64,000 bases of DNA from Anadara kagoshimensis (taxonomy: Eukaryota > Mollusca > Bivalvia > Arcoida > Arcidae), in the NCBI GenBank assembly GCA_021292105.1, contig CM037863.1, positions 5,591,298 through 5,655,297 of the forward strand, written 5' to 3'. Position numbers and translations under genes: made by a program. Below, one piece after another: positions 3,182 through 62,354 of this stretch. The notes under the pieces are model-generated. The model searched no databases. It saw only the letters and a list, made by a program, of their open reading frames with translations, and was not told the origin of the DNA. Numbering within the stretch: the first letter of the stretch is position 1; every line of letters starts with the position of its first letter.

Positions 3182-3183
3182 TA

Positions 3184-10225: not shown

Positions 10226-10945
10226 CAGTCTTGTCGAAAGTTTAACACTAAGCTAACGAATTAGTGTTAGATCATACCGGTTCCTCGTTAGCTGTATCTC
10301 TTGTTTACCGTTACTATCTATCCCTTGACAGGTTTTTCGCCACTACTGTATTTCCATAAATTGAATGCACATGGTTTTTATTCTTTATTTCTTTTAATTG
10401 AACATGTTTCCATTAAACTCTCATAAAATGCATTTAAAATGCACTGACCTTTAATTAAAAACATTATTGTTCATTCTCGTGTACATAGAGAAATTTTGTG
10501 AAAATTGTAGAAATTTGATCAAGCTTATACACCGGTAGGTCATTGTTGCTTTGGTTTTTTCCATGTGTGATTATCATGAATATTCAAATTATGACATAAC
10601 GTTTATAGTTGTTCCAAGTAAGAAGGTACAGAAGGGATAATTTTGACATAGCCATATTTGTTGTTTTATTTAAAAAGTCAAAAAATTGATCTATGTACAG
10701 AATTAAGTTCACCTTTTCATGAATGAAAAATATTTTTCTCTATTAGGTCAGTATATATGTATTTTGTATTAAGTTTTGACAATTTTTTGTGGGTTTGTTG
10801 GAAAATACGACTTTAATCTTGCATTTTCAATGTGCACTGAATTTATGGAAATACACTAGCTATCTATATACATGTATCTGCCGCTCAACAACCAAGCTTC
10901 GACTCATTTTCTTTATAGCTCAGTGTTAAACTTTCGACCGGTCTG
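10226..10945. mobile_element. 720-bp TIR element ('gtcgaaagtttaac' family) with a nested element
   Basis: Left TA|CAGTCTTGTCGAAAGTTTAA and right 'ttaaactttcgaccggtctg'|TA form inverted repeats of about 33 bp. Without the nested element (10346-10856) the remainder lines up end to end with the 34881-39947 element. It holds about one unit (cctcgttagctgtatctc…ttttcgccacta) of the 55-bp repeat amplified there. Other copies are at 12581, 34089 and 34881. Confidence 0.8.
10346..10856. mobile_element. 511-bp nested TIR element, copy A
   Basis: Left TA|CTGTATTTCCATAAATTGAA; right 'aatttatggaaatacac'|TA. The interior is AT-rich with no open frame of note. An inverted relative with the same ends and interior words ('ataacgtttatagttgttcca') is at 61809-62354. 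It sits inside 10226-10945 at a 'cacTAgct' site. Confidence 0.8.
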
Positions 10946-11225
10946 TATTGTAGCTGTCCATCTCTCGGTCACTCGGTAGCCGCACTTTGACGCCTTTTTA
11001 TTAGCTCACTGTTAAACTTTCGACCGGTCTGTATTGTAGCCATCCAGTATTTTCTAATAAATTATGATCGGTTACCTCTCGGTACAGACTGCGAGAATGT
11101 TTGTTAGTTCGCTTCCTGAAGGTTGGTGGTTTCCTCCGGTTTTCTCATCCATACCGGAGCTATTTCACCTACATATAACTTTAAATATCTAGACTGCATG
11201 GGACGTTAAACCCTACTTCACTTGT
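10946..11225. repeat. Duplicated TIR end plus SINE/LINE tail fragments
   Basis: 10980-11040 repeats the right end of the preceding element ('actgttaaactttcgaccgg'), a local duplication of about 93 bp. 11100-11220 contains 'ggtggtttcctccgg' and the SINE-type tail 'gggacgttaaaccc'. Confidence 0.6.
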
Positions 11226-12580: not shown

Positions 12581-12698
12581 CAGACATGTCGGAAGTTTAA
12601 CACTGATCTAACAAAAACGGAGTCGAGGTTTATATACCGAATGGCCGAAATTTCTAAAGCTAGTGGCCAAAATGCTACTAAAATATAGATGGCAACTA

Positions 12699-12746
<48 letters not shown>

Positions 12747-12812
12747 GTGTTCGAGGAAAGTTACTGATTCGGCACTAATTCGTTACCTCAGTATTAAACT
12801 TCAACATGTTTG
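12581..12812. mobile_element. 232-bp TIR element, 'gtcgaaagtttaac' family, degenerate
   Basis: Left CAGACATGTCGGAAGTTTAA, right 'attaaacttcaacatgtttg'|TA. It contains 'ggagtcgagg' and a 44-base poly(A) at about 12699-12744. Confidence 0.65.
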
Positions 12813-18000: not shown

Positions 18001-18108
18001 ATAAGAAGAAAGGTAATTTTCCATTATACTTGGCCAGTTCATAAAGCCATTGGAAAATTACCTTTTTCTTATAGCTTAGTGCTTAACTTTCGACAGATCT
18101 GTACTGTT
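18001..18108. repeat. Short hairpin and TIR-end fragment
   Basis: 18003-18024 'aagaagaaaggtaattttcc' is inverted at 18048-18067. It is followed by 'cttagtgcttaactttcgac', the right end of the 'gtcgaaagtttaac' family. Confidence 0.55.
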
Positions 18109-20694: not shown

Positions 20695-22115
20695 TTTGTG
20701 AGCATTTGTTGGTCGGATTACTTTGTTGTATTGGCTGTAATCAAGTACATGTTTTACATTTGTTGGTTGGATTACTTTGTTGTATTGGCTGTAATCAAGT
20801 ACCTGTTTTACATTTGTTGGTTGGCATACTTTGTTGTATTGGCTGTAATCAAGTACCTGTTTTACATTTGTTGGTTGGATTACTTTGTTGTATTGGCTGT
20901 AATCAAGTACCTGTTTTACATTTGTTGGTTGGATTACTTTGTTGTATTGGCTGTAATCAAGTACCTGTTTTACATTTGTTGGTCGGATTACTTTGTTGTA
21001 TTGGCTGTAATCAAGTACCTGTTTTACATTTGTTGGTTGGATTACTTTGTTGTATTGGCTGTAATCAAGTACCTGTTTTACATTTGTTGGTTGGATTACT
21101 TGGTTGTATTGGCTGTAATCAAGTACCTGTTTTACATTTGTTGGTCGGATTACTTTGTTGTATTGGCTGTAATCAAGTACCTGTTTTACATTTGTTGGTT
21201 GGATTACTTTGTTGTATTGGCTGTAATCAAGTACCTGTTTTACATTTGTTGGTTGGATTACTTTGTTGTATTGGCTGTAATCAAGTACCTGTTTTACATT
21301 TGTTGGTTGGATTACTTTGTTGTATTGGCTGTAATCAAGTACCTGTTTTACATTTGTTGGTTGGATTACTTTGTTGTATTGGCTGTAATCAAGTACCTGT
21401 TTTACATTTGTTGGTCGGATTACTTTGTTGTATTGGCTGTAATCAAGTACCTGTTTTACATTTGTTGGTTGGATTACTTTGTTGTATTGGCTGTAATCAA
21501 GTACCTGTTTTACATTTGTTGGTTGGATTACTTTGTTGTATTGGCTGTAATCAAGTACCTGTTTTACATTTGTTGGTTGGATTACTTTGTTGTATTGGCT
21601 GTAATCAAGTACCTGTTTTACATTTGTTGGTTGGATTACTTTGTTGTATTGGCTGTAATCAAGTACCTGTTTTACATTTGTTGGTTGGATTACTTTGTTG
21701 TATTGGCTGTAATCAAGTACCTGTTTTACATTTGTTGGTTGGATTACTTGGTTGTATTGGCTGTAATCAAGTACCTGTTTTACATTTGTTGGTTGGATTA
21801 CTTTGTTGTATTGGCTGTAATCAAGTACCTGTTTTACATTTGTTGGTTGGCATACTTTGTTGTATTGGCTGTAATCAAGTACCTGTTTTACATTTGTTGG
21901 TTGGATTACTTTGTTGTATTGGCTGTAATCAAGTACCTGTTTTACATTTGTTGGTTGGATTACTTGGTTGTATTGGCTGTAATCAAGTACCTGTTTTACA
22001 TTTGTTGGTTGACATACTTTGTTGTATTGGCTGTAATTAAGTACCTGTTTTACATTTGTTGGTTGGATTACTTGGTTGTATTGGCTGTAATCAAGTACCT
22101 GTTTTACTTTGGTTC
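20695..22115. repeat. 54-bp minisatellite, about 26 copies
   Basis: Unit 'ttggttggattactttgttg' 'tattggctgtaatcaagtac' 'ctgttttacatttg'. Because 54 is divisible by three, three frames stay open for 460-500 codons, two on plus and one on minus. The minus frame repeats VKQVLDYSQYNKVIQPTN. The variant positions (ttggt/ttggc, ggat/ggca, tttg/ttgg) change the amino acid in that frame, and there is no start context or splice support. I read the frames as a by-product of the array. Confidence 0.95.
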
Positions 22116-22205: not shown

Positions 22206-23498
22206 GTATTCATTATTACATAGTTGATCTCCATGGTTATGTTCTGAAATGGAAGGAAGTGACGTATTCATTATTACATAGTTGATCTCCATGGTTATGT
22301 TCTGAAATGGAAGGAAGTGACGTATTCATTATTACATAGTTGATCTCCATGGTTATGTTCTGAAATGGAAGGAAGTGACGTATTCATTATTACATATTTG
22401 ATCTCCATGGTTCTGTTCTGAAATTCAAGGAAGTGACGTATTCATTATTACATAGTTGATCTCCATGGTTATGTTCTGAAATGGAAGGAGGAAGTGAAGT
22501 ATTCATTATTACATAGTTGATCTCCATGGTTATGTTCTGAAATGGAAGGAAGTGACGTATTCATTATTATATAGTTGATCTCCATGGTTATGTTCTGAAA
22601 TGGAAGGAGGAAGTGAAGTATTCATTATTACATAGTTGATCTCCATGGTTATGTTCTGAAATGGAAGGAAGTGACGTATTCATTATTACATAGTTGATCT
22701 CCATGGTTATGTTCTGAAATGGAAGGAAGTGACGTATTCATTATTACATAGGTGATCTCCATGGTTATGTTCTGAAATGGAAGGAAGTGACGTATTCATT
22801 ATTACATATTTGATCGCCATCTTTATGTTCTGAAATGGAAGGAAGTGACGTATTCATTATTACATAGTTGATCTCCATGGTTATGCTCTGGAATAGAAGG
22901 AAGTGACGTATTCATTATTACATAGTTGATCTCCATGGTTATGATATGAAATGAAAGGAAGTGACGTTTTCATTATTACATAGTTGATCGCCATCTTCAT
23001 GTTCTGAAATGGAAGGAAGTGACGTATTCATTATTACATAGTTGATCTCCATGGTTATGCTCTGAAATAGAAGGAAGTGACGTATTCATTATTACATAGG
23101 TGATCGCAATGGTTATGTTCTGAAATGGAAGGAAGTGACGTATTCATTATTACATATTTGATCGCCATCTTTATGTTCTGAAATGGAAGGAAGTGACGTA
23201 TTCATTATTACATAGTTGATCTCCATGGTTATGTTCTGAAATGGAAGGAAGTGACGTATTCATTATTACATAGGTGATCGCAATGGTTATGTTCTGAAAC
23301 GGAAGAAAGTGACGTATTCATTATTACATAGTTAATCTCCATGGTTATGTTCTGAAATGGACGTAAGTGACGTATTCATTATTACAAAGTTGATCACCAT
23401 GGTTATGTTATGAAATGAAAGGAAGTGACGTATTCATTAATATGAAAATAGGCATTGCCTATCCCGGGAAATGTCCAAATTTATTATCGGGTTCTTGT

Positions 23499-27469: not shown

Positions 27470-27740
27470 AATGGGGTTTTATGTTCCAGTCCAGAATATT
27501 TTACTTATATCGAAACGACACCAGCTATAGGTGAACTTTTTACCTTTGTATTGCGCTTTAGGCAATGTGCATGAAGGATTCATTACTATGCCACGCCTGC
27601 TGTGACACGGGACATGGGTTTAAAGGTCTCTTCCGAAGGACCCAGTGACTTTCATATCTGAATGCCGAGTGTTTGGTGAAAGAACAGGCACTGCCGATTC
27701 TCAAGTCTTGGTAAGACCCCTGCCGCGGTTCGAATCCACA
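27470..27740 (-). mobile_element. tRNA-derived SINE lacking the end of its head
   Basis: Tail and body as in the first SINE family. The minus-strand head is preserved only to box B ('cggttcgaatcc') and then runs into the AC-rich array. Confidence 0.7.
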
Positions 27741-27764: not shown

Positions 27765-30700
27765 TAAATCTCAATACTATAGATAATAACCAATAAACAA
27801 ATAAACACTTCAACCAGAAAACTAAACACTTCAACTATACAACCAAACACTTCTACTATACAACTAAACACTTGAATTATACAACTTAACATCTCTACTT
27901 TCCTACTAAACACTTCATTCATACAACTAAACACTTGAACTATACAACTAAACATTTCTTATATCCTACTAAACACTTCAACCATACAACTAAATACTTT
28001 TTTCCATACAACTAAACACTTCAACTATACAACTAAACATTTCTTATATCCTACTAAACACTTCAACCATACAACTACATACTTTTTTTCCATACAACTA
28101 AACACTTCAACTATACAGCTAAACATTTCTTATATCCTACTAAACACTTCTACCAAACAACTAAACACTTTTTTCCACACAACTAAACACTTTTTCTACA
28201 CAACTAAACATTTCAATTATACAACTAAACCTTCAACCATGCAACCTATCACTTCAACCCTACAACTAAACAATTGAACCATACAAATAAACACTTTAAA
28301 CATACAACCGATCACATCAACGAAACCAAAACCTATAAATTAAATCGTGGTCATGATTTGTAGCACAATACAAAGTACTAACCTTGCTGGTGCGGACTTA
28401 AACTGTTACAACTAAACACTTCAAGCATACAACTGAATATTTTAGCAATACAATTAAACGCTTCAACCATACAACTAAACACTTAACTAAGCACTAACCA
28501 CACCTAATATCTTGACATTTCAACCAATAACTAAACACTTCAACTTTATTTCTAATCACTAAACACTTAAACTATATAACTAAACACTTCCATCACACTA
28601 CTAATCATTAAACACTTCAGCCATAAAACTAAACACTTGAATTCTACCACTAATCACTAAACACTTTGAACAACTATGCAACTGAACACTTCAACCATAC
28701 AACTAAACACTTCAACTCTAAAACTATCACTTAACACTTCAACCATACAACTAAACACTTCAACCATACAACTAACTTCAACTCTAAAACTTTCACTTAA
28801 CACTTCAAACATACAACTAAACACTTCAACTCTAAAACTAATCACTTAACAATTCAACCATACAACTAACATTCAACTCTAAAACTATCACTTAACACTT
28901 CAACCATACAACTAAACACTTCAACTTTAAAACTAATCACTAAACACTTCAACCATACAACTCAACACTTCAACTCTAAAACTATCACTTAACACTTCAA
29001 CCATACAGCTAAACACTTCAACTTTAAAACTAATCACTAAACACTTCAACCATACAACTAAACATTTCAACCATACAACTTAACACTTCAACCATACAAC
29101 TAAACACTTCAACCATACAACTAAACACTTCAACTCTAAAACTTATCACTAAACACTTCAACCATACAACTAAACACGTCAACTCTAAAACTAATCACTT
29201 AACACTTCAACCATACAACTAAACACTTCAACTCTAAAACTATCACTTAACACTTCAACCATACAACTAAACACTTCAACCATACAACTAAACACTTCAA
29301 TTTTAAAACTTATTACTAAACACTTCAACCATACAACTTAACTCTTCAACCATACAACTAAACACTTCAACTCTAAAACTTATCACTAAACACTTCAACC
29401 ATACAACTAAACACTTCAACTCTAAAACTAATCACTAAACTTCAACCATACAACTTAACACTTCAACTCTAAAACTATCACTTAACACTTCAACCATACA
29501 ACTAAACACTTCAACTTTAAAACTAATCACTAAACACTTCAACCATACAACTAAACACTTCAACTCTAAAACTAATCACTAAACACTTCAACCATACAAC
29601 TTAACACTTCAACTCTAAAACTATCACTTAACACTTCAACCATACAACTAAACACTTCAACCATACAACTAAACACTTCAACTCTAAAACTTATCACTAA
29701 ACACTTCAAACATACAACTAAACACTTCAACTCTAAAACTAATCACTTAACACTTCAACCATACAACTAAACACTTCAACTTTAAAACTAATCACTATAC
29801 ACTTCAACCATACAACTAAACACTTCAACTCTAAAACTAATCACTAAACACTTCAACCATACAACTTAACACTTCAACTCTAAAACTATCACTTAACACT
29901 TCAACCATACAACTAAACACTTCAACCATACAACTAAACACTTCAACTCTAAAACTTATCACTAAACACTTCAAACATACAACTAAACACTTCAACTCTA
30001 AAACTAATCACTTAACAATTCAACCATAGAACTACACACTTCAACTTTAAAACTAATCACTAAACACTTCAACCATACAACTCAACACTTCAACTCTAAA
30101 ACTATCACTTAACACTTCAACCATACAACTAAACACTTCAACTTTAAAACTAATCACTAAATACTTCAACCATACAACTAAACATTTCAACCATACAACT
30201 AAACACTTCAACCATACAACTAAACACTTCAACTCTAAAACTTATCACTAAACACTTCAACCATACAACTAAACACTTCAACTTTAAAACTTATCACTTA
30301 ACACTTCAACCATACAACTTAACACTTCAACTCTAAAACTTATTACTAAACACTTCAACCATACAACTAAACACTTCAACTCTAAAACTAATCACTAAAC
30401 ACTTGAACCATACAACTTAACACTTCAACTCTAAAACTAATCACTTAACATTTCAACCATACAACTAAACACTTCAACCATACAACTTAACACTTCAACT
30501 CAAAAAACTAATCACTTAACACTTCAACCATACAACTAAACACTTCAACTTTAAAAGTTATCACTTAACACTTCAACCATACAACTAAACACTTCAACTC
30601 TAAAACTAATCACTTAACAATTCAACCATACAACTCAACACTTCAACTCTAAAACTATCACTTAACACTTCAACCATACAACTAAACACTTCAACTTTAA

Positions 30701-31535
30701 AACTAATCACTAAACACTTCAACCATACAACTAAACACTTCAACTCTAAAACTATCACTTAACACTTCAACCATACAACTAAACACTTCAACCATACAAC
30801 TAAACACTTCAACTCTAAAACTATCACTTAACACTTCAACAATACAACTAAACACTTCAACTCTAAAACTTATTACTAAACACTTCAACCATACAACTAA
30901 ACACTTCAACTCTAAAACTTATCACTAAACACTTCAAACATACAACTAAACACTTCAACTCTAAAACTAATCACTTAACAATTCAACCATACAACTAAAC
31001 ACTTCAACTTTAAAACTAATCACTAAACACTTCAACCATACAACTTAACACTTCAACTCTAAAACTATCAATTAACACTTCAACTATACAACTAAACACT
31101 TCAACCATACAACTAAACACTTCAACTCTAAAACTATCACTTAACACTTCAACAATACAACTAAACACTTCAACTCTAAAACTTATTACTAAACACTTCA
31201 ACCAACCATACAACTAAACACTTCAACTCTAAAACTTATCACTAAACACTTCAAACATACAACTAAACACTTCAACTCTAAAACTAATCACTTAACACTT
31301 CAACCATACAACTAAACACTTCAACTTTAAAACTAATCACTAAACACTTCAACCATACAACTCAACACTTCAACTCTAAAACTATCACTTAACACTTCAA
31401 CCATACAACTAAACACTTCAACTCTAAAACTTATCACTAAACACTTCAACCATACAACTAAACACTTCAACTCTAAAACTAATCACTAAACACTTCAACC
31501 ATACAACTAAACACTTCAACCATACAACTTAACAC
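27765..31535. repeat. AC-rich higher-order minisatellite
   Basis: Built from two alternating submonomers, 'acttcaaccatacaactaaac' and 'acttcaactctaaaactaatc' + 'actaaac', giving a unit of about 48-50 bp in perhaps 75 copies. The left 600 bp is more divergent. A non-repetitive spacer ('gtagcacaatacaaagtact') at 28320-28410 recurs at 31545-31610 and 31735-31790. Minus-strand frames (VEVFSCMVEV) are artefacts. Confidence 0.93.
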
Positions 31536-31800
31536 AAAGCCTATTAACTAAACCATGGTTATGAAAATTGTAACACAGTACAAAATATTAATCTTGTAAT
31601 ACTAGAGCAGTTGTTTTTGTGTTTCACATTACAACTAAACATAAATACTTCAAGCATACATTTGAACACTTTAAACAGTTTACTAAACACTTCAACCATG
31701 CTACTAAACACTTAACCAAAATCTATACACTAAGTAAACTAAACTATAGTTATTAAAATTGTAGTACATTTTTAAGTACTTACATTCTAACAATACTAGG
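31536..31800. repeat. Degenerate continuation of the AC-rich array
   Basis: Two spacer copies ('ggttatgaaaattgtaacac', 'agttattaaaattgtagtac') are separated by a few decayed 'aaacacttcaaccatg' units. Confidence 0.8.
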
Positions 31801-31934: not shown

Positions 31935-32270
31935 CACTGCGGTAGCTCAGATGGTAGAGTGATGGCTCCATAAGTGGGAGGTCGTGGGTTTGAGTCCCGA
32001 CCGGGTCTGACCCAAGACTTGAAAGTGGGTAGTGACTGTTCTTTCGCCAAGCACTCGGCATCAAATGAAAGTCACGGTTCTCTCGGAAGGGAACTTAAAA
32101 AAAACAAGGTCCCGTGTCACGGTAGGCTTGGCACGATAAAGAACCTTGCTGTGTAATGCCATCAGCGCAACGCACAGGCAAAATTTCTGCACCTTCACCA
32201 ATAGCTGGCGACGTCTCGATATAATTGAAATATTCTTGAATGGGACCATTACTCAACTCAACTCCTATCT
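31935..32270 (+). mobile_element. tRNA-derived SINE, full length
   Basis: Best copy of family 1: 'ctgcggtagctcagatggta' (box A), 'gtgggtttgagtccc' (box B), and the body with 'gaaagtcacggttctct'. It ends 'gcgacgtctcgatataattg' and 'attactcaactcaactcc'. Confidence 0.9.
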
Positions 32271-33185: not shown

Positions 33186-33935
33186 ATCCTGTTAGTTTCA
33201 AAGTTTTTACTTTGCTTTGGGATTGTGATTTGGACATGGGTTGGTATGTTTGTTTTTACTTTGCTTTGGGATTGTGATATGGACATGGATTGATATGTTT
33301 TTTTTTACTTTGTTTTGGGATTGTGATATGGACATGGATTGATATGTTTGTTTTTACTTTGCTATGGGATTGTGATATGGACATGGATTGGTATGTTTGT
33401 TTTTACTTTGTTTTGGGATTGTGATATGGACATGGATTGATATGTTTGTTTTTACTTTGTTTTGGGATTGTGATATGGACATGGATTGGTATGTTTGTTT
33501 TTACTTTGTTTTGGATTGTGATATGGACATGGGTTGGTATGTTTGTTTTTACTTTGCTTTGGGATTGTGACTTGGACATGGATTGGTATGTTTGTTTTTA
33601 CTTGTTTTGGATTGTGATATGGACATGGATTGATATGTTTGTTTTTACTTTGCTTTGGGATTGTGATTTGGACATGGATTGATATGTTTGTTTTTACTTT
33701 GCTTTGGGATTGTGATATGGACATGGATTGTATGTTTGTTTTTACTTTGCTTTGGGATGGTGATTTGGACATGGATTGGTATGTTGTTTTTACTTGTTTT
33801 GGGATTGTGATATGGACATGGATTGATATGTTTGTTTTTACTTTGCTTTGGGATTGTGATATGACATGGATTGTTATGTTTGTTTTTACTTTGCTTTGGG
33901 ATTGTGATATGGACATGGATTGGTATGTTTTTTTT
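33186..33935. repeat. 49-bp minisatellite, about 15 copies
   Basis: Unit 'attgtgatatggacatggat' 'tggtatgtttgtttttactt' 'tgctttggg'. It is preceded by the composite-repeat words 'gttagtttcaaagtttttac', so it is an expansion of the end of that element. Confidence 0.95.
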
Positions 33936-34088: not shown

Positions 34089-34284
34089 CAGGCCTGTCGA
34101 AAGTGTAACACTGAACTAGAGAAAAGGAGTCTAAGTTAGGCTGTGGGGTGGACGAAATATGGATAAGGTGACCGAATATTTGATAGAGATAAATTCTGAC
34201 AACAAGCTGCTGAGATCTAGGATATCAAGGAACCGATATTAATCACTTATTTGGTGGCTTAGTGTTAAACTTTCGACAGGTTTG
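34089..34284. mobile_element. 196-bp TIR element, 'gtcgaaagtttaac' family
   Basis: TA|CAGGCCTGTCGAAAGTGTAA left and 'ttaaactttcgacaggtttg'|TA right. Unexpanded copy without the 55-bp unit. Confidence 0.8.
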
Positions 34285-34289: not shown

Positions 34290-34870
34290 AAAAAGGCTAG
34301 GCGAGGTTGTTTAAAAGGCATTAATGGACCGTAAAGAATGGCTAAAAATAAAGTGAAATACAGAACATACTAATTTCTGTTGAAATTGAAACATTCTTCA
34401 ATTATACATTTTAAGACCATTTCGAAATTTTAATTTTTAAATTTCTAACTGATTATATTCTATAGCTATTCTTACTTTACGTAAAATTGAAGTGTCATAT
34501 TACAATTTTACCATTGCCTAATGGTGTTCATTATCAATAATTCAGGATCTTTTGAAGTTAGCATCATTATTTTTCTTTTTAATTTCACATTATTTGTTTT
34601 TTATCAGAACCTTTGTAAAAATAACACAAACAAAATTTAAATATTGACTTTTAACTTTCAATAAATTTTAAATTTAAAATGTTGTAAATTTTCCTTTTTT
34701 CTCTGTAGTAAAAAAATATTCTCCAACTCTAAACACAGTACCGATCCGTCCAATGTTTTACGCTGGCCTAGCAAACTGGAGTAGAAGCTCGGATGCCAAG
34801 ATGTTAATAGCTGATAACCGAATAACTAGGGGGCGACAAGCGTCATGACAACGTGATACATTATTAAGAC
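34290..34870. other. AT-rich spacer, nothing assigned
   Basis: No exon-like open frame or shared repeat was recognised. Confidence 0.45.
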
Positions 34871-34880
34871 TAGTACACTA

Positions 34881-37800
34881 CAGGCTTGTCGAAAGTTCAA
34901 CACTAAGCTTACGAGTTAGTGCCGAATATGTACCTCATCTCGACTCCTCGTTAGCTGTATCTCGGAATCTTTTCGACCAATAGCTGCCTATATCTCGACT
35001 CCTCGTTAGCTGTATCTCGGAAGCTTTTCGACCACTATCTGTCTATATCTCGACTCCTCGTTAACTGTATCTCGGAAGATTTTCGACCACTATCTGTCTA
35101 TATCTCGACTCCTCGTTAGCTGTATGGCGGAAGCTTCTCGATCACCAGCTGCCTATATCTCGACTCCTCGTTAGCAGTATCTCGGAATCTTTTCGATCAC
35201 TACCTGCCTATATCTCGACTCCTCGTTAGTTGTATCTCGGAATCTTTTCTATCACTGGCTGTCTATATCTCGACTCCTCGTTAGTTGTACATCGGAAACT
35301 TTTCGATCACTAGCTGCCTATATCTCGACTCCTCGTTAGTTGTACATCGGAAACTTTTCGATCACTAGCTGCCTATATCTCGACTCCTCGTTAGTTGTAC
35401 ATCGGAAACTTTTCTATCACTACCTGCCTATATCTTGACTCCTCGTTAGTTGTACATCGGAAACTTTTCTATCACTACCTGCCTATATCTTGACTCCTCG
35501 TTAGTTGTATCTCGGAAACTTTTCTATCATTAGCTGCCTATATCTCGACTCCTCGTTAGTTGTACATCGGAAACTTTTCTATCACTACCTGCCTATATCT
35601 TGACTCCTCGTTAGTTGTATCTCGGAAGCTTTTCTATCACTAGCTGTCTATATCTCGACTCCTTGTTAGCTGTATCTCGGAAGCTTTTCGATCACTAGCT
35701 GTCTATATCTCGACTCCTTGTTAGCTGTATCTCGGAAGCTTTTCGACCACTATCTGTCTATATCTCGACTCCTCGTTAACTGTATCTCGGAAGCTTTTCG
35801 ATCACTAGCTGTCTATATCTCGACTCCTCGTTAGCTGTATCTCGGAAGCTTTTCGACCACTGGCTGTCTATATCTCGACTCCTCGTTAACTGTATCTCGG
35901 AAGCTTTTCGACCACTGGCTGTCTATATCTCGACTCCTCGTTAGCTGTATTGCGGAATCTTTTCGACCAATAGCTGTCTATATCTCGACTCCTCGTTAGC
36001 TGTATCTCGGAATCTTTTCGACCAATAGCTGTCTATATCTCGACTCCTCGTTAGCTGTATCTCGAAATCTTTTCGACCACTAGCTGCCTATATCTCGACT
36101 CCTCGTTAGCTGTATCTCGGAAGCTTTTCGACCACTATCTGCCTATATCTCGACTCCTCGTTAGCTGTATCTCGGAAGCTTTTCTATCACTATCTGCCTA
36201 TATCTCGACTCCTCGTTAGCTGTATCTCGGAAGCTTTTCTATCACTAGCTGCCTATATCTCGACTCCTCGTTAGCGGTATCTCGGAATCTTTTCTATCAC
36301 TAGCTGTATATATCTCGACTCCTCGTTAGCTGTATCTCGGAATCTTTTCTATCACTATCTGCCTATATCTCGACTCCTCGTTAGCTGTATCTCGGAAGCT
36401 TTTCTATCACTATCTGCCTATATCTCGACTCCTCGTTAGCTGTATCTCGGAAGCTTTTCTATCACTAGCTGCCTATATCTCGACTCCTCGTTAGCAGTAT
36501 CTCGGAATCTTTTCTATCACTAGCTGTATATATCTCGACTCCTCGTTAGCTGTATCTCGGAATCTTTTCTATCACTAGCTGTATATATCTCGACTCCTCG
36601 TTAGCAGTATCTCGGAATCTTTTCGATCACTATCTGCTATATCTCGACTCCTCGTTAGCTGTATCTCGGAAGCTTTTTTATCACTAGTTGCCTATATCTC
36701 GACTCCTCGTTCGCTGTATCTCGGAAGCTTTTCGATCACTAGCTGCCTATATCTCGACTCCTCGCTAGCTGTATCTCAAAGGTTTTCTATCACTAACTGT
36801 CTATATCTCGACCCCTCGTTAGCAGTATCTTGGAATCTTTTCCATCACCAGCTGTCTATATCTCGACTCCTCGTTAGCTGTATCTCGGAAGCTTTTCGAT
36901 CACTACCTGCCTATATCTCGACTCCTCGTTAGCTGTATCTCGGAAGCTTTTCGATCACTAGCTGCCTATATTTCGACTCCCCGTTAGCTGTATGGCGGAA
37001 GCTTCTCGATCACCAGCTGCCTATATCTCGACTCCTCGTTAGCAGTATCTCGGAATCTTTTCGATCACTACCTGCCTATATCTCGACTCCTCGTTAGCAG
37101 TATCTCGGAATCTTTTCGATCACTAGCTGCCTATATCTCGACTCCTCGTTAGCAGTATCTCGGAAGCTTTTCGATCACTAGCTGTCTATATCTCGACTCC
37201 TCGTTAGCTGTACCTCGGAAGCTTCTCGATCACTAGCTGCCTATATCTCGACTCCTTGTTAGCTGTATCTCAGAAGCTTTTCGACCACTAGCTGTCTATA
37301 TCTCGACTCCTCGTTAGCTGTATCTCGGAAGCTTTTCTATCACTAGCTGTCTATATCTCGACTTCCGTTAGCTGTATCTCGGAAGCTTTTCGATCACTAC
37401 CTGCCTATATCTCGACTCCTCGTTAGCTGTACCTCGGAAGCTTTTCTATAACTAGCTGTCTATATCTCGACTCCTCGTTAGCTGTACCTCGGAAGCTTTT
37501 CTATAACTAGCTGTCTATATCTCGACTCCTCGTTAGCTGTACCTCGGAAGCTTTCTATAACTAGCTGTCTATATCTCGACTCCTCGTTAGCTGTACCTCG
37601 GAAGCTTTTCTTATAACTAGCTGTCTATATCTCGACTCCTCGTTAGCTGTACCTCGGAAGCTTTTCTATCAACTAGCTGTCTATATCTCGACTCCTCGTT
37701 AGCTGTATTCAAAGGTTTTCTATCACTAGCTGTCTATATCTCGACTCCTCGTTCGCTGTACCTCGGAAGCTTTCGACCACTGGCTGTCTATATCTCGACT

Positions 37801-39947
37801 CCTCGTTAACTGTATCTCGGAAGCTTTTCGACCACTATCTGTCTATATCTCGACTCCTCGTTAACTGTATCTCGGAAGCTTTTCGATCACTAGCTGTCTA
37901 TATCTCGACTCCTCGTTAGCTGTATCTCGGAAGCTTTTCGACCACTATCTGTCTATATCTCGACTCCTCGTTAACTGTATCTCGGAAGCTTTACGATCAC
38001 TAGCTGTCTATATCTCGACTCCTCGTTAACTGTATCTCGAAGCTTTACGATCACTAGCTGTCTATATCTCGACTCCTCGTTAACTGTATCTCGGAAGCTT
38101 TTCTATCACTAGCTGTCTATATCTCGACTCCTCGTTAACTGTATCTCGGAAGCTTTACGATCACTAGCTGTCTATATCTCGACTCCTCGTTAACTGTATC
38201 TCGGAAGCTTTTCGACCACTGGCTGTCTATATCTCGACTCCTCGTTAACTGTATCTCGGAAGCTTTTCTATCACTAGCTGTCTATATCTCGACTCCTCGT
38301 TAACTGTATCTCGGAAGCTTTACGATCACTAGCTGTCTATATCTCGACTCCTCGTTAACTGTATCTCGGAAGCTTTACGATCACTAGCTGTCTATATCTC
38401 GACTCCTCGTTAACTGTATCTCGGAAGCTTTTCTATCACTAGCTGTCTATATCTCGACTCCTCGTTAGCTGTATCTCGGAAGCTTTTCTATCACTAGCTG
38501 TCTATATCTCGACTCCTCGTTAGCTGTATCTCAAAGGTTTTCTATCACTAGCTGTCTATATCTCGACTCCTCGTTAGCTGTACCTCGGAAGCTTTTCGAC
38601 CACTGGCTGTCTATATCTCGACTCCTCGTTAACTGTATCTCGGAAGCTTTTCGACCACTATCTGTCTATATCTCGACTCCTCGTTAACTGTATCTCGGAA
38701 GCTTTTCGATCACTAGCTGTCTATATCTCGACTCCTCGTTAGCTGTATCTCGGAAGCTTTTCGACCACTGGCTGTCTATATCTCGACTCCTCGTTAACTG
38801 TATCTCGGAAGCTTTTCTATCACTAGCTGTCTATATCTCGACTCCTCGTTAACTGTATCTCGGAAGCTTTTCGACCACTATCTGTCTATATCTCGACTCC
38901 TCGTTAACTGTATCTCGGAAGCTTTTCGATCACTAGCTGTCTATATCTCGACTCCTCGTTAGCTGTATCGCGGAATCTTTTCGATCGCTAGCTGTCTATA
39001 TCTCGACTCCTCGTTAGCTGTATCTCGGAAGCTTTTCTATCACTAGCTGCCTGTATCTCGACTCCTCGTTAGCTGTACTTTGGAATCTTTTCGATCACTA
39101 TCTGTCTATATCTCGACTCCTCGTTAGCTGTACCTCGGAATCTTTTCTATCACTAGCTGTCTATATCTCGACTCCTCGTTAGCTGTATCTCAGAAGCTTT
39201 TCGATCACTAGCTGTCTATATCTCGACTACTCGTTCTCTGTATCTCGGAAGCTTTTCTATCACTAGCTGCCTGTATCTCGACTCCTCGTTAGCTGTACTT
39301 TGGAATCTTTTCGATCACTATCTGTCTATATCTCGACTCCTCGTTAGCTGTACTCGGAATCTTTTCTATCACTAGCTGTCTATACTCGACTCCTCGTTAG
39401 CTGTATCTCAGAAGCTTTTCGACCACTAGCTGTCTATATCTCGACTCCTCGTTAACTGTACCTCGGAAGCTTTTCTATCACTAGCTGTCTATATCTCGAC
39501 TCCTCGTTAACTGTATCTCAGAAGCTTTTCGACCACTAGCTACCTATATCTCGACTCCTCGTTAGCTGTACCTCGGAAGCTTTTCTATCACTAGCTGCCT
39601 GTATCTCGACTCCTCGTTAGCTGTACTTTGGAATCTTTTCGATCACTAGCTGTCTATATCTCGACTCCTCGTTAGCTGTACTTTGGAATCTTTTCTATCA
39701 CTACCTGTCTATATCTCGACTCCTCCTTAGCTGTATCTCGGAAGCTTTTCGATCACTAGCTGTCTATATCTCGACTACTCGTTCTCTGTATCGCGAAAGC
39801 TTCTTGATCACTAGCTACCTATAAATCGACTCCTCGTTCTCTGTATCGCGGAAGCTTCTCGATCACTAGCTGTCTGTATCTCGGCCACGCGGCACCCAAA
39901 CTTCGACTTCTTTTCGTTAGCTCAGTGTTAAACTTTCGACAGGTCTG
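34881..39947. mobile_element. 5-kb TIR element filled by a 55-bp minisatellite
   Basis: Left TA|CAGGCTTGTCGAAAGTTCAA…, right 'ttaaactttcgacaggtctg'|TA: imperfect terminal inverted repeats of about 33 bp and a TA duplication. Left and right flanks inside the TIRs ('agttagtgccgaat…', 'cacccaaacttcgacttctt') align with the ends of the 720-bp sibling at 10226-10945, which holds about one unit of the internal repeat. No coding capacity. Confidence 0.8.
34937..39880. repeat. 55-bp minisatellite, about 89 copies
   Basis: Unit 'ctcgactcctcgttagctgt' 'atctcggaagcttttcgatc' 'actagctgtctatat'. Variants occur in runs: gttagttgtacatcgg at 35.2-35.6 kb, gttaactgtatctcgg at 37.8-38.9 kb, and 'agctgtactttggaatc' repeated near 39.1, 39.3 and 39.6 kb. 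This indicates multi-unit duplication. Each unit carries several CpG and an AAGCTT site. Confidence 0.97.
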
Positions 39948-40076
39948 TATATTTCTATGAATATAGTTTTTAGTTCTTACTTATTCATTTTGTACAGAAC
40001 TAGTGGATTGTATAAAGGTTTGTAGGATTAGGAAGACACTGACAGTATAGATAGGCCAAGCCAGTCCTATACCAAA

Positions 40077-48434: not shown

Positions 48435-48627
48435 GACATTGGCCTGTCAGCTTGACCTTTAATTTAAAACTTTATTATTGACCAGTATATTCATTTATAG
48501 AAAACACGTGTTCATTTCGTCTACTGTACATATTGTGAAATATTGTTTATGTCTTAACACTATTCATGTATTGGGTGGATCGTCGTATATGAATATTCTT
48601 ATTAAAGGTCAAGTAGACAGGTCAATG
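48435..48627. mobile_element. About 193-bp TIR element related to the 62.5-kb array
   Basis: Left 'acattggcctgtcagcttga' + 'cctttaat' is inverted at the right as 'attaaaggtcaagtagacag' + 'gtcaatgt'. The arm matches the core of the 65-bp unit at 62.5-64 kb ('acattgacctgtccgcttga'). Confidence 0.65.
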
Positions 48628-49013
48628 TTGTTAACCTATACAAGAATACAGACATCATTTTAGATAATTGTTGTATTTTTTGTCTTGCTGTTCTAATAAA
48701 ATTGTTATACTACCGTGATAAATTAAATTTGCCACCCCAGCGCTTAAAATAATTACCTCGACTCAACCATAAACCATAAATAAAGACGTATTGAAGTTTA
48801 ATACGTTTTTAATGAATAGATTATTGGTGTTTTCTAAAATATGTGAATAAAGTATTCTCACTTATTTTCATTTCATTTTCATCTGACGAACCAATAGTTT
48901 TTTTTCGTAAATTTATCAATTAAGTTGTTTGCTTATTTTAAGAACATGTTTCAGTTTTATACTGAATACTGAGTAAAACGGCTCAACTGCATATATTCAA
49001 AATTTGGATGAGA

Positions 49014-49020: not shown

Positions 49021-49071
49021 TATTTTAGAACTTTTGTACAAAAATTTGAACAAGTAAGGATAAATGTCGAA

Positions 49072-49390
49072 ATGAAGGAAAAATTCCTCCGAAGTTTATA
49101 TTTTTCTATTATATTTGGTACCTTTCATTGTTATGAATCAGATTTTTATACGCTAAAAGCGGAGTACCAAAATAAGACATACCAAGAGACACCAACGTTT
49201 GATAAAATAAGCTTTTCTTTAATTGAATGTTCGGCATTTTGTAGCGGAACACCAGGGTGTAATATTATATTTTTCAATAAAATTTCCGGGAAATGCGAGG
49301 CGTTTCAGAAGATAACAGACGTAAATAACTTTGCATACTCGGACAATACAGATGTTTTTGAAAAAGCAGGAGACCAAACAGTAACCACAG
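49072..49390 (+). CDS. Lectin gene exon 1: signal peptide and PAN-like domain
   Basis: ATG to 'ACCACAG|gtaaac', 106 codons plus one base. The start is the first ATG after in-frame stops, and the hydrophobic stretch follows at once. Confidence 0.85.
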
Positions 49391-52300
49391 GTAAACAAAT
49401 TCATATTAATAGGATTGCCCTGAATATATTTGACATTCCATGTTTCATTCACATAATTCTGTTTACACACGTGGCGGTTGTAGCTAGCTAAAGAGGAGAT
49501 GCTTACCATTCCGGAGCACCCAGCCTCACTTCCCGTGTCTAACCTGACTTGTCAATTCCAAAGTTTTTACTTTGCTTCTGGATTGTGATTCGGACATGGA
49601 TTAGTATGTTTGTTTTTACTTTGCTTCTGGTTTATGATTCGGACATGGATTAGTATGTTTGTTTTTTACTTCTGGATTGTGATTCGGACATGGATTAGTA
49701 TGTTTGTTTTTGACTTCAGATTGTGATTCGGACATGGATTTGTATGTTTGTTTTTGTCTTCTGGATTGTGATTTGGACATGGATTAGTATGTTTGTTTTT
49801 GATTTCTGGATTGTGATTTGGACATGGATTAGTATGTTTGTTTTTACTTTGCTTCTGGTTTATGATTCGGACATGGATTAGTATGTTTGTTTTTTACTTC
49901 TGGATTGTGATTTGGACATGGATTAGTATGTTTGTTTGTGACTTCAGATTGTGATTCGGACATGGATTTGTATGTTTGTTTTTGTCTTCTGGATTGTGGT
50001 TCGGACATGAATTTGTATGTTTGTTTTTGACTTCTGGATTGTGATTCGGACATGGATTAGTATGTTTGTTTTTGATTAAGAGATACTGTAATATAAAATT
50101 TTAATAAATTTAAGATTATGCATCAAGTGACTTGATAAAATGTCTGAGAAAAAGAAATTTGCAACTAAAATAGGTACTTACACTCGCATTAATAGATATA
50201 AAAAATATTTATTATCAAAATCAAACATATTAATCCATGCCTAAACCACTATCGAAATAGCAAATTAGTCTGGCAAATTAGACTAAACACGTCAATTTCC
50301 ATAAAGGAAATGAGGAAGTGAGGTCGGGTGCTCCGGAAGGGTACGTACCTCCTGTTTATATAGCTTTTACCGCCAAGTATGTGAAGAAACGGAATAAAAG
50401 GAGTACGGAACTATCAGATGTCAAATATATCCAGGGTAATTATGGATACAGAAATATATGTCTTTTAAACAATGTTGTGATGAGAACCATAAAACGTTAT
50501 AATGCCTTTATAAGCCTAGGCCTGCAAAATTCTTGCGTCAAAAATTTATTTGCTTCGTTATATAAAGTTTCCATAGCGTGTAAACTGTGAAATAAATACA
50601 CTATAAGCATGAGAATCAGGTATAATGTTGCACGAAAAAGAAAAGTAGCAATAGAAAAATTAAAGTTGATGTGAACCGAAGATTTTGTTGTTGGAATCTT
50701 TATCATCTGACACGAAACATGTACTTTTTATATATGAATGGGAGGATTACAGGGCCTTGATTATTGAAAATAGTTAAGTACTTATAAATCCTATAAATCT
50801 GCTAGTACTTGTTTTATTTTATAAAAAACAACAAAACTATCTGTATCCAGCCTGATAAGACATTACGATCCATATGATCTAATTTGGTCCAATGTGTAGC
50901 ATACTCTTAAACAGAATCCGTAATAATCTTTAAATTCTGTTCTTGAATTTTACAAGTTTGTTCTGGTGGCAGAGTGACTAACACTAAGACCAATCACCAA
51001 TGTCAACCGGTGTCCATCACATGCGTCGCATTATGGAATTAATATTCCCCTACTTCACCACGTAGGGTTTTTCACAAGATCCGTCGATTGCAGAAATATA
51101 GACATTTGATATTCCCTTGCTTTAACACGTAGGGTTTTCCACGGGGCCTTTTAGTTGAGTTCCGTAGTTTGCAGAAATACGGACAAATAAGCTAAATAGA
51201 TATATAGATAATTGCTATAACTCGTTGTAAAATAAATATAATATATTTTATGCACTGATCTATCTTTGCAACATTTCTATCAATATGTTAAAAAGCTTAA
51301 TTTGATACTTTTACAGAAGCTCCGATTGCCACGACTAGATGTCCGCCGTATACCACGTCAGGTTAGTAACTTAACATACTCATTCAAAATTGAAAGAAAG
51401 GTTAAGGTCATCCCTGATTTGAGCAAAAGCATAAGTATCTTTCATAATTAATTAACACATATCAGTCGTAAAATAAAAACAAGAGGCGCTAACAATTCCG
51501 GAACATACGGCCTCACTTCCTTGGCATTTAACAAAATTTGTCAGTTTCAAAGTTTTTTCATTGCTTTCGGGTTGTGATTTGGATATTAATTAGCATGTGC
51601 TTTGACATTGTGGTTGCAACAAGAATTAGTATGTTTGTTTTCACTTTGCTTTGGATTGTGATTTGGACATGGATTGGTATGTTTATTTTCACTTTGCTTT
51701 GGGATTGTGATTTGGACATGGATTGGTATGTTTATTTTTACTTTGCTTTGGGATTGTGATTTGGACATGGATTGGTATGTTTATTTTTACTTTGCTTTGG
51801 GATTGTGATTTGGACATGGATTGGTATGTTTATTTTTACTTTGCTTTGAGATTGTGACTTGGACATGGATTGGTATGTTTATTTTTACTTTGCTTTGAGA
51901 TTGCGGTTTGGACATAATTATTTTTACTTTGCTTTGGAATTTTAATTTTGACATGGATTGGTATGTTTGATTTTACTTTGCTTTTGGATTGTGATTTTGA
52001 CATGAATTGGTATGTTTGATTTAACTTTGGTTTAGGATTGTGATTTGGGCACGGATTGTTATGTTTGGATTTCTACCATTTAGTCCGCGCGTTGTTGCTA
52101 GGAGTCTTTTTCCAAAATGGTTGTCTAATGCTGCAGAATTAAACAGATTAAGTAATAATATACATATTGTTATTTAACAGAATGTGGAATATCTGGTTAT
52201 ATAAAGATTGATACAACAACAAACATCAGTCCGTGTTTTAAAGTTTATACCCTAAATGACAGAAAATCACATCCACTGGCCAAAGCTGTCTGCCAATCAG

Positions 52301-55208
52301 AAAACTCGAGGCTAATCGTGTTAAGCGACAGTAACTTGTTACAGCTTATTGGCGACTACATCTCCTGTGTTTGTAAGTATGACATAAATCTAAATCATAA
52401 TATCCCAGATGAGTGGTAGACGAGGGATGCATTTGATTGGCCAGTAGTGGTGTAATGTAGTGGGGCAATGTGGTTTTTTCGTCCCAGTCATTTTTTTCCT
52501 CTTGGTTCCTAAATGAAGAAAAACAGAGTGCCCGGGGAAATGAAAGACATTCGACAAGCGAACTGACAAACTTCCTGACAGAAAGATCAGACGTAAAATG
52601 CAAAATTGTTTGGTTAAATGCTGTTTACATGAGTATTTTTTTAATTAATCGTGATAAGACCAATTTATTTATAAATATCACGGTTTAATCTGAACTTAAG
52701 TTCATGTGGTGCGTGAGTTTGTGCAAGTACTTCTTGATATGATTTGTATTAGTGTACACTAATGGTGACATTTCGACTGCTAGTACATTGGCCGGTAATG
52801 TCACAGATAAACTGGGTAGGCCACTTACATTATAATGATGTAGAGCTAATCAGTAAAGGCCTACGAGAAGTAACAATCTCTTCTCTCGGGATCGAACACA
52901 CGGCGATGAGATGGCTTTAGATTTAAGGGTAACATCATAACCGCCGAGTCATCGCGACCCCTTCTAAGTGCAATGGGGCTAATTTATGTATCAGTGTTTC
53001 GTCAAACTGATTAACAGGACGATTTTTGCCATCTACAACAATTTTGTTATTATCTCCAGGGGACATAATTTTTTTCATTTTGTCCAGGGCGATATCATGT
53101 TTCCATTATGTCCAGGGCGACATAATTTTTTCATTATGTCCAGGGCCATATTATGTTTCAATATGTCCAGGGCGACATATTTTTTTTAATTATGTCCAGG
53201 GCGATATCATGTTTTTATTATGTCCAGGGCCATATAATGTTTTCATAATGTCCAGGCGATATCATATTTTCATTATAACTGGGGCGCTGTCCTGTTTTCA
53301 TTTTGTCCAAGACGACTTAATTTTTTTTATTATGTCCAGGGCGATATCATGTTTCATTATATCTAGGGCGACATAATTTTCATATTATGTCCAGGGCGAT
53401 ATTGTGTTTTCATTATGTCCAGGGCGACATCATGTTTTCATTATGTACAGGGCCATATAATGTTTTCATTATATCTAGAGGGACATAATTTTTATATTAT
53501 GTCCAGGGCGATATCATGTTTTCATTATGTCCAGGGTGACATCATGTTTTCGTTATTTTCAGGGCGACATCATGTTTTCATTATGTCCAGGGTGACATAA
53601 TGTTTTCATTATGTCCAGGGCGACATAATTTTGTTTATTATGTCCAGGGCGATATCATGTTTTTATTATGTCCAGGGCCATATCATGTTTTCATTATGTC
53701 CAGGGCGACATCATGTTTTCATTATGTCCAGGGCGACATCATGTTTATAATTATGTTTATTCTTACTTTTGTTTCACAAATAATAAGTTATGGTAGAGGT
53801 TGTTCCAACTACGGAAACTTAAAACAACGAAGCAAGCTGCTTACAAATAATTCGATGACGCAAGGATAATGCACGCATAGGCTTATCAAGGCCCTCAAAA
53901 AGATTTATGACCGTCATCACAAAATTGCTGTTGTCTCTGTTTCCAAAATAGTTGTTCCATGATTCTTTGATTTCCAATTTCATTACACACGTGGCGGATG
54001 GAAGGTATTACACCCAATCTCACATCCCTGCTGGAAGTTCACGTGTTTAACCTAAATTTTCAGTTTCAAAGTTTGTACTTCTCTTTTCTGATTGCAATTT
54101 AGACAGGGATTAGTTCATTTGTTATTATTTTGCTTTTTGATTTGTGATTTAGACATGGATTAGTATATTTGTTTTTACTTTGCTTTTTGATTTAGACATG
54201 GATTTGTATATTTGTTTTTACTTTTGCTTTTTGATTTGTGATTTAGACATGGATTAGTATATTTGTTTTTACTTTGCGTTTTGATTTGTGATTTTTGAAT
54301 GCATTAGTATATTTGTATTTTTGCTTTTTGATTTGCCACTTCCGGGGCACACAATCTCACTTCCCTGATGGAATTTCACGTGTTTAACCTAATTTTCAGT
54401 TTCAAAGTTGTCACTTTGCTTTTTGATTTGTGATTTAGGCATGGATTAGTATATTTGTTTTTACTTGCTTTGTGATTTGTGATTTAGACATGGATTAGTA
54501 TACTTTTTGATTTGTGATTTAGACATTGATTAGTATATTTGTTTTTACTTGCTTTTTGATTTGTGATTTAGACATGGATTAGTATATTTGCTTTTACTTT
54601 GCTTTTTGATTTGTGATTTAGACATGGATTAGTATATTTGTTGTTACTTTGCTTTTTGAGTTGTGATTTAGACATGGATTAGTATATTTGTTGTTACTTT
54701 GCTTTTTGATTTGTGATTTAGACATGGATTAGTATATTTGTATTTTTGCTTTTTGATTTGCCACTTCCGGGGCACCCAACCTCACTTCCCTCGTGGAACT
54801 TCACGTGTTTAATCTTATTTGCCAGGTTCAAAGTTTTACCTTACTTTTTGATTTGTGAATTAGACATGGATTAGTATATTTGTTTTTACTTTGCTATTTA
54901 AATTGTGATTTAGACCGGAATAGTATATTTGTTTTTACTTTCCCTTTTGATTTGTGATTTAGACATGAATTAGTATATTTGTTTTTGATCTTTTAGATGA
55001 TGATATTACACAGAGCACACATTTTTGGCTTGGATTAGAATACAGTTTCGATAATGGACAGTGGGTGTGGTTTAATAACAATACCCATTTGTCATGGAGT
55101 TACACATCTGATCGCGAGTGTGGAATGATGTTTAAAAGTGGAGATATGTATCCAGGATACTGTCAGGCTCATGAAAACTTCATTTGTGAATCCCTCGCTG
55201 GCGCGTAG
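49072..55208 (+). CDS. Secreted PAN/apple plus C-type-lectin-domain protein (spliced)
   Basis: The exons 49072-49390, 51317-51361 (short linker), 52181-52372 and 54997-55208 join without a stop, all at phase-1 boundaries. The product is 255 residues (240 if the linker is skipped). Residues 1-20 are a signal peptide (MKEKFLRSLYFSIIFGTFHC). A PAN-like region follows with CSAFCSGTPGC and KCEAF, and then a Thr-rich linker. The C-terminal C-type-lectin fold has AVCQSENSRLIVL, FWLGLEYS (WIGL motif), QWVWF and CGMMF…YCQ…FICE. The EPN/QPD and WND sugar-binding motifs are not visible, so calcium-dependent sugar binding is doubtful. By family, such proteins are secreted recognition or adhesion molecules, often in large, fast-evolving molluscan sets. 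Dead relatives lie upstream at 40.1-45.7 kb. Function is inferred from the fold. Confidence 0.85.
49410..50085 (+). repeat. Composite repeat with 44-49-bp array, about 11 units (intron 1)
   Basis: Head words 'atatttgacattccatgttt' and 'cacgtggcggttgtagctag' are followed by units of 'ggattgtgattcggacatgg' 'attagtatgtttgttttt'. Some units lack 'actttgc', which gives mixed lengths. Confidence 0.9.
50200..50590 (-). repeat. Composite repeat, minus orientation (intron 1)
   Basis: One unit, then 'gaggtcgggtgctccggaag', 'gaactatcagatgtcaaata' and 'taagcctaggcctgcaaaat'. The 90-codon open frame across it is incidental. Confidence 0.75.
51317..51361 (+). CDS. Lectin gene short linker exon
   Basis: 'cttttacag|AAGCTCCGAT…ACGTCAG|gttagtaac': 45 nt, phase 1 in and out, coding EAPIATTRCPPYTTS. 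It may be a cassette exon, since skipping it keeps the frame. A decayed counterpart is at 42843. Confidence 0.6.
51478..52065 (+). repeat. Composite repeat end with 49-bp array, about 10 units (intron)
   Basis: 'caattccggaacatacggcc' and 'cagtttcaaagttttttcat' precede units of 'gattgtgatttggacatgga' 'ttggtatgtttatttttact' 'ttgctttgg'. Confidence 0.9.
52181..52372 (+). CDS. Lectin gene exon: N-terminal half of the C-type-lectin domain
   Basis: 'tatttaacag|AATGTGG…TGTGTTT|gtaagtat', 63 codons plus split codons. It contains CGISGYIKID, CFKVYTLND and AVCQSENSRLIVLSD. Confidence 0.85.
52435..52620 (-). repeat. Degraded retroelement block
   Basis: 'aacagagtgcccggggaaat' and 'actgacaaacttcctgac' match the dispersed block at 27090-27200. 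Confidence 0.5.
52785..52962 (-). mobile_element. 5' fragment of the second SINE family
   Basis: 'tctcgggatcgaacacac' (box B reversed) and 'ccgccgagtcatcgcgaccc' (head start). It is truncated at its 3' side near 'ttggccggtaatgtcac'. Confidence 0.6.
53055..53760. repeat. 28-bp minisatellite, about 25 copies (intron)
   Basis: Unit 'attatgtccagggcgacatc' 'atgttttc', with gcgaca/gcgata/gccata variants and 27-30 bp lengths. Confidence 0.95.
53770..54990 (+). repeat. Composite repeat with reiterated 49-bp array (intron)
   Basis: Head at 53775-54080 ('agcaagctgcttacaaataa', 'cacacgtggcggatgg'), then units of 'tttgatttgtgatttagaca' 'tggattagtatatttgtttt'. The stretch 'gccacttccggggcac…cacgtgtttaa' recurs at about 54343 and 54760, so head-plus-array blocks were duplicated together. 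The array runs to within about 15 bp of the last exon's acceptor. Confidence 0.88.
54997..55208 (+). CDS. Lectin gene last exon: C-terminal half of the C-type-lectin domain
   Basis: Acceptor 'tgatcttttag|', then 70 codons to TAG. WIGL-type HFWLGLEYSFDNGQWVWF and the closing cysteines CGMMF, YCQ and FICE. Confidence 0.88.
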
Positions 55209-61565: not shown

Positions 61566-61808
61566 ACTAGGAACTCCAGAAAAGGATATTTTTCTGGATT
61601 CCTGTTATGAATAGGATTTGGTGTAGCCTTAAAGATGTTTAAATCACACACTTATGAATCATATCTCCTCTCACTGCCTACGTTTAAATCTGAATAGTGG
61701 TGATATGTAACAAAAAATACCCGAAAAACCCATCTGATTTGACGTATTTGCGAGTCACACGGGCTAACGATTCTAACGCGGCAAGGGCTGTACACAGTGG
61801 TTTTACTA

Positions 61809-62354
61809 CTCTATTTCCACAAATTCAGTGCACATGGAAAATGCAAGAATAAAGTCGTATTTTCCAACAAACCCAACAAACATTTGTCAAAACTTAAAAC
61901 AAAATATAATGACCTAATAGGCAAAAATATTTTTCATTCATAAAAAAGTGAACTTAATTCTGCAATTTTTGACCTTTTTAACAAAACAACCAATATGACT
62001 GTGTTAAAACTATCCCTTCTGTACCTTCTTATTTGGAACAACTATAAACGTTATGTCATAATTGGAATATCCATTATGATCACACCTGAAAAAAACTCGA
62101 ACAACAATGACCTACCTGACCCTAAATGCCCTGATGTAACTTTGAATGAGGCCCAATTGGTGTATAAAGGAAGTTTCCGAAACTTTCGCAAAATTTCTCT
62201 ATGTACAGGAGAACTGAACAATATTGTTTCTAAATAAAAATATAATTTGGTTAGGTCAGTGCATTTTAAATACATTTAATTGAAAGTTGGAAATATTTTC
62301 AATTAAAAGTAATAGATAATAAAAATCATATGCACTCAATTTATGGAAATACAG
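61809..62354. mobile_element. 546-bp TIR element, copy B of the 10346 element
   Basis: TA|CTCTATTTCCACAAATTCAG left and 'aatttatggaaatacag'|TA right. Interior words ('aacaactataaacgttatgt', 'gtgaacttaattctg') match copy A in reverse. The 80-codon frame at 61995-62237 is incidental. Confidence 0.78.

Follow-up and report, generated by a model that had tools for sequence, protein, structure and literature searches.

The stretch of Anadara kagoshimensis DNA analysed here (the window; 64,000 nucleotides, C7:5591298-5655297, from a genome of 1.1 Gb and 36 contigs) holds an element of 5067 bp, which we call E1, with terminal inverted repeats (TIRs) of 34 bp each, a TA outside either end and an interior occupied by tandem copies of a 55-bp unit. 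Three further elements of the same family, E2, E3 and E4, lie in the same window (Table 1). Taken with the TA as 36 nt, the arms of E1 (34879-34914 and 39914-39949) are 86% complementary, and an 18-base end pattern, allowed up to three mismatches, matches at nine places in the window, where 100 shuffles average 0.12 matches. Tandem Repeats Finder (TRF) reports a period of 55 bp and 90.1 copies over 34937-39883, and a separate decomposition by alignment gives 90 units and six bases; TA-flanked inverted ends around about 89 copies, as described in an earlier note on this DNA, are thereby confirmed, with 90 units counted.

The units of E1 are not uniform: 67 of the 90 are distinct, at a mean pairwise identity of 89.8% (inserted bases ignored), and like units tend to lie together. 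Adjoining units differ at 4.17 sites, against 5.58 when permuted (minimum 5.02 in 2000); there are five runs of at least three like units (permuted mean 0.1, maximum 3, in 500 permutations) and 21 exact repeats of at least 90 bp (mean 5.4, maximum 12, in 200 permutations or shuffles), the longest being 185 against 168 in the null. The edge blocks of the array are the most diverged, with 4.8 and 4.5 differences from the consensus against 2.2-3.9 inside. The likeness of neighbours and the long exact repeats support the multi-unit duplication that had been suggested for this array, and such duplication is plain in a second copy of the insertion, L009, discussed below.

The array has a GC content of 44% and an observed/expected CpG ratio of 1.38, against 0.77 in the rest of the window. 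The single stop-to-stop open reading frame of at least 110 amino acids within E1 (117 aa) is located in it. Rfam and ARAGORN gave no matches, nor did exact-pattern searches of viral and genome contig collections, which are little informative for an animal-like genome. Derivation of the 55-bp unit from the ends of the family was considered and found unconvincing (for the six ends, the same-strand score was reached in 22, 19, 297, 47, 626 and 37 shuffles out of 1000). A hairpin-prone unit was likewise rejected, the z-score of the DNA fold being -0.28 for the 55-bp unit and -1.42 for the 49-bp unit of a second family described later.

Table 1. Features of the window (numbered from its first letter) and related arrays elsewhere in the genome.
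Feature	Position	Strand	Basis and remarks
E1, expanded TIR element	34881..39947	+	inverted arms and sequence; TA at 34879-34880 and 39948-39949
E1 left TIR	34881..34914	+	TIR profile E 6.5e-11 (profile partly built from this end)
E1 left flank, between end and array	34915..34936	+	aligns with siblings
E1 array, 90 units of 55 bp	34937..39883	+	TRF and separate unit decomposition
E1 right flank, between array and end	39884..39913	+	alignment
E1 right TIR	39914..39947	-	TIR profile E 1.2e-12 (profile partly built from this end)
E2, one-unit sibling	10226..10945	+	inverted arms, TA both sides; 720 bp
E2 unit, 5' part	10282..10300	+	19/19 identical to array consensus
Unrelated nested element within 3' part of E2 unit	10346..10856	.	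511 bp, readable as TA-flanked
Extra right-end half copy adjoining E2	10951..11033	+	family profile E 4.6e-16
E4, sibling, opposite orientation	12581..12812	-	232 bp; TA at a single end; about one diverged unit; contains an A run of 45 bases
Solitary family end	18071..18103	-	profile E 2.2e-06
E3, sibling, opposite orientation	34089..34284	-	TA both sides; about one diverged unit; 196 bp
Decayed family fragment between E3 and E1	34741..34831	-	profile E 4.2e-07
49-bp family, expanded loci	33203-33935, 49563-50073, 51598-52067, 54071-54986		plus eight single-unit loci
L009, duplicate of E3-E1 region	C7:5766210-5775900		about 140 kb from E1; longer array
L009 array			55 bp x 121.1; between paired ends
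L013 array			22 bp x 47.9; between paired ends
L014 array			22 bp x 109.9; between paired ends
L017 array			35 bp x 23.9; between paired ends
L024 array			22 bp x 4.4; between paired ends
L064 array			71 bp x 4.2; second sample
L071 array			80 bp x 5.8; second sample
L083 and L084 arrays			37 bp x 11.9; second sample
L088 and L089 arrays			81 bp x 2.6 and 2.4; second sample; tandem left ends
L098 array			23 bp x 18.2; second sample
L101 array			21 bp x 9.5; second sample

All three siblings in the window hold about one unit. For E2 this had been noted earlier, and one unit is found there, split, although much of the length of E2 is the nested element: with that element skipped, E2 reads as one unit plus a 27-bp insert (score 56.8 against a null maximum of 46.2 in 2000 shuffles; z 8.5). 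The nested element has inverted arms of its own (10343-10372 and 10830-10859) and a second copy at 61806-62357 on the minus strand, 76.6% alike; both copies can be read as TA-flanked. E3 and E4 had been thought to lack the unit, which does not hold: when turned round and aligned globally with a one-unit version of E1, their cores give z 7.0 and 8.5 (6.4 for E2), a score reached by none of 500 shuffles in each case. Left unturned, E3 and E4 gave global scores reached by 4 and 128 of 500 shuffles, and the local score of E3 was reached by 8 of 500. The support from the unit alone is weaker than that from the core; in one of two such tests 7 (E3) and 0 (E4) of 500 shuffles reached the score, and a search of the window minus E1 with the unit gave best E values of 0.041 (in 12581-12812), 0.097 (10950-10998) and 0.26 (10276-10300), with no other match of E below 1. 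The side of E4 that lacks the TA reads GC, and its inverted arms as printed stop short of the outermost bases; the end profile recovers these.

The insertion of E1 can be seen twice, since L009 duplicates the region together with E3, the latter at 100% identity. The left flank and end of the two copies align with 351 matches, 3 mismatches and 3 gap columns, and the right 2117 bp with 1978 matches, 43 mismatches and 192 gap columns; the left end of L009 reads CA where E1 reads TA. The unit count is 90.1 in E1 and 121.1 in L009, and L009 has an extra block duplication of 1.9 kb: stretches of 665 and 644 bp recur exactly at a distance of 1885 bp (34.3 units), and identity at that spacing is 0.988 to 1.000 over about 1250 bp. 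The count therefore changed at a fixed insertion, with a large block among other steps. Long tandem arrays can be mis-sized in assemblies, and an error of assembly could partly account for 90 against 121 units; it cannot account for the arrays themselves, and with most units of E1 distinct and the flanks intact we consider it very unlikely as the explanation of array length.

Beyond the window the family is large. Its left end, searched as a 41-base pattern with up to three mismatches, has at least 2778 matches in the genome (1437 and 1341), where the reversed control has none. Our first sample consisted of 39 stretches chosen by likeness to the first 220 bp of E1, and therefore biased to arrays; it held 52 end pairs, five of which enclose arrays of period at least 20 (Table 1), and one further pair has just 16- and 19-bp arrays of fewer than three copies. 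Arrays adjoin a single end at L010 (22 bp), L029 (30 bp) and L039 (105 bp), and at L011 and L012, both 22-bp arrays, no family end shows in the fetched sequence, whose border falls within the array. The second sample, by left end alone, comprised 60 insertions (the first 62 listed places minus one already fetched and one adjoining another), each read over about 495 bp, which several arrays run past. Eight of the 60 have arrays of period at least 20, two more arrays of 16-17 bp being left out of the count; judged by their sequences, L083/L084 and L088/L089 may each be copies of one event. The right end was found for 28 of the 60 insertions, 20 of which have TA on both sides. Left ends also occur repeated in tandem, at L021:1-365 (86-bp period), L032:2-347 (63-bp period) and L088 and L089 (81-bp period).

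These samples are small beside at least 2778 matches, and the ends of arrays often lie beyond the stretch read; within them, the check proposed in the earlier note, whether numerous insertions share their ends but vary in unit number, came out favourably. The idea of a before-and-after series for the birth of an array in place is likewise supported, with the correction that other insertions amplified other internal segments and not the 55-bp unit. The series could in principle run the other way, from an ancestor that carried an array to one-unit copies that lost units by recombination, for tandem arrays contract as well as grow. However, no array of period at least 20 is present in 52 of the 60 end-sampled copies (first 500 bp) or in 47 of the 52 end pairs, and units that differ between insertions are unexpected from a single ancestral array; such a collapse seems to us most improbable. 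Alternatively, ready-made minisatellites might have been captured from elsewhere, as is reported for the origin of the Xenopus miDNA4 repeat in the account given by PMC12628747. The arrays of L011 and L012, with no family end in the fetched stretch, and that of L010, with one end only, would suit such capture; but the E1 unit matches the unexpanded interior at the corresponding place, as the 22-bp units do by eye, and there is little chance that capture is the origin of these arrays.

We propose, with high confidence, that the array started in place, by slippage or misaligned repair between short repeats of the interior, and was extended by block duplication. The family would be a large set of non-autonomous, TA-flanked TIR elements (miniature inverted-repeat transposable elements, MITEs) that carry, in an interior of about 150 bp, a short motif (ATCTCG and neighbours) several times over in diverged form. 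Two such motif copies could slip against each other or be misaligned in repair, which would duplicate, or delete, the intervening segment in place; the new array would then be enlarged by unequal exchange and block duplication. E1 would in this way have amplified a 22+33 bp segment to 90 copies and other insertions other segments, the ends being bystanders to array growth.

The motif copies may have acted as the seed. Self-matches were compared over 52 unexpanded copies of 185-230 bp, of which 22 came from the second sample and 30 from the first; the strongest offsets are 22, 21, 33, 32, 25 and 35 bp. The motif [TC]ATCTCG, with at most one change, stands at position 59 in 26 of the 52 and at 81 in 20, its commonest spacings being 22 (19 pairs), 54 (6) and 32 (6). 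The nine unit lengths (21, 22, 23, 30, 35, 37, 55, 71 and 80) fall on higher offsets than random sets do (p 0.012 within 1 bp, 0.034 exact), in a test that omitted the periods of the tandem left ends (63, 81, 86) and the 105-bp array; unit lengths fit the spacing of internal repeats moderately. The 55-bp unit is likely an internal 22+33 composite. Its score as an internal 22+33 duplication was reached by 67 of 1000 shuffles, so that test gives no proof; we accept this origin as likely because the first part occurs in the genome as 22-bp arrays and because 22 is the strongest offset. By eye, the E1 unit could be the 22-bp first segment joined to a later one of about 33 bp through loss of what lay between, and the 27-bp insert of E2 would then be the lost segment.

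Several observations weigh against the birth of arrays in place from interior repeats. Offset 55 itself ranks 38th of 80 (54 ranks 10th); the offset test is partly redundant, since 21, 22 and 23 are one peak; and the unit lengths 30, 37, 71 and 80, at offset percentiles of 0.35, 0.31, 0.51 and 0.29, lend it no support. Among the matches listed, the 55-bp array was seen at the E1 insertion and its duplicate L009 only. In 32 of the 60 sampled insertions no right end lies within about 490 bp, and many copies are therefore not a simple short element. In the window, like units in E1 run to 4 at most, which is inside the permutation maximum of 5, the unit taken alone matches weakly in E3 and E4 (5 and 3 of 2000 shuffles reach the score), and unturned E4 also beats 500 of 500 shuffles in local alignment to E1, although at a score of 30 against 63 when turned.

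A second, unrelated dispersed element of the window, about 220 bp long, carries a 49-bp segment at its 3' end. At 12 picked loci (further profile hits lie outside this count) the segment is present as 1.0-1.2 units at eight, two of them with low scores (41 and 45), and as arrays of 15.0, 10.4, 9.6 and 18.7 units at the other four. The 425-bp period at 54071-54986 takes in a portion of the element that lies upstream of the unit. Three of the four expanded arrays have no flanking inverted pair above shuffles, and inverted ends therefore do not seem to be necessary for array birth here; the fourth array sits between inverted copies of its own element. Across 15 array intervals of the window, flanking inverted pairs exceed all 100 shuffles within 500 bp at three: E1, 27797-31720 and 49571-50075. 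The latter two were rejected as TIR-flanked arrays like E1, their inverted pairs being dispersed repeats; inverted copies of one such repeat lie at 27589-27719 and 32003-32133, on either side of the 27797-31720 array.

Other long arrays of the window lie at 270-3182 (55 bp x 53.1), 20703-22111 (54 bp x 26.1) and 22206-23439 (58 bp x 21.2); over 500 bp of flank (269 bp on the left side of 270-3182) none has an inverted pair that exceeds shuffles. At 62543-64000 an array with a 65-bp unit and 22.5 copies continues past the window, and about 48 bp of its unit stands alone at 48595-48642 (87.8%). At 49021-49488 a reading frame, from a scan of six of the 23 listed, matches the PAN domain at the exact Pfam cut-off (21.4 bits, E 0.00023).

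The step from single-copy DNA to tandem array has so far been reconstructed for the most part from satellites already complete. In this family, thousands of insertions have one starting sequence, and a minority of those examined grew arrays, with differing units, so that the trigger of array birth becomes testable by counting; the duplicated insertion of E1 and L009 in turn shows an array that gained a large block while its insertion site stayed the same. The chances appear to us evenly balanced that a single MITE family is a genome-wide seedbed of minisatellites, with a common series of motifs in each copy and the unit length set by whichever motif pair is misaligned. If this is true, its insertions are natural replicates for measuring the rate, trigger and growth of array birth. 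Judging by the 49-bp family, the process may extend to more than one type of element.

The family has several of the features by which MITEs are recognised: terminal inverted repeats, seen as arms in E1, E2 and E3, through the end profile in E4 and in the 52 end pairs elsewhere; a target site duplication, with TA on both sides of E1, E2 and E3, not E4, and of 32 of the 52 pairs of the first sample; and many dispersed copies, by the left-end matches and their control given above. The length range of 50-1000 bp that PMC4596501 gives for MITEs fits E2, E3 and E4, E1 being outside it owing to the array. The TA target site is also that of Tc1/mariner elements.

Minisatellites inside MITEs are already known, and one family that gives rise to many different units represents a variation on this; among the papers listed by our literature searches, none describes a single MITE family whose arrays have many different unit lengths, an absence that is not proof. 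Of the Xenopus systems, miDNA4 reportedly goes back to Scalvenzi and Pollet in 2014, and Xstir and Xmix are said to come from Hikosaka and Kawahara in 2004. As summarised in PMC12628747 and PMC9659126, miDNA4 is a Tc1/mariner MITE of Xenopus tropicalis with an internal satellite that occurs either as one monomer or in arrays that vary in copy number, the proposed trigger being short direct repeats; on the origin of the repeat the two reviews differ, captured according to PMC12628747 and born inside according to PMC9659126. The E1 family resembles it as a TIR MITE with one-monomer and array forms, but its insertions carry many unit lengths, where one satellite type is described for miDNA4. The Xstir and Xmix repeats, in the same two reviews, take MITE, array and composite forms and derive from MITE-internal sequence, as the repeats of E1 do; the mechanism proposed in those accounts joins two neighbouring elements, whereas E1 retains one end pair around one array.

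Elsewhere, the pearl-family elements of bivalves (CvA, DTC84), as described in PMC5139131, are modular and have internal tandem repeats like the E1 family, a likeness by description only, with arrays of up to six monomers against 90 in E1. BrickBuilt of Porphyromonas gingivalis, in the description of PMC4596501, has a minisatellite of 23-bp unit within a MITE, between a leader and a tail; it is bacterial, and the likeness lies in the minisatellite inside a MITE, with no kinship claimed. In the CMITE of corals, whose tandem arrays PMC2872659 ascribes to replication slippage, whole elements stand in tandem and target sites are TTAA, in contrast to the internal unit and TA of E1; the tandem left ends at L021, L032, L088 and L089 are closer to CMITE, as described there, than E1 is.

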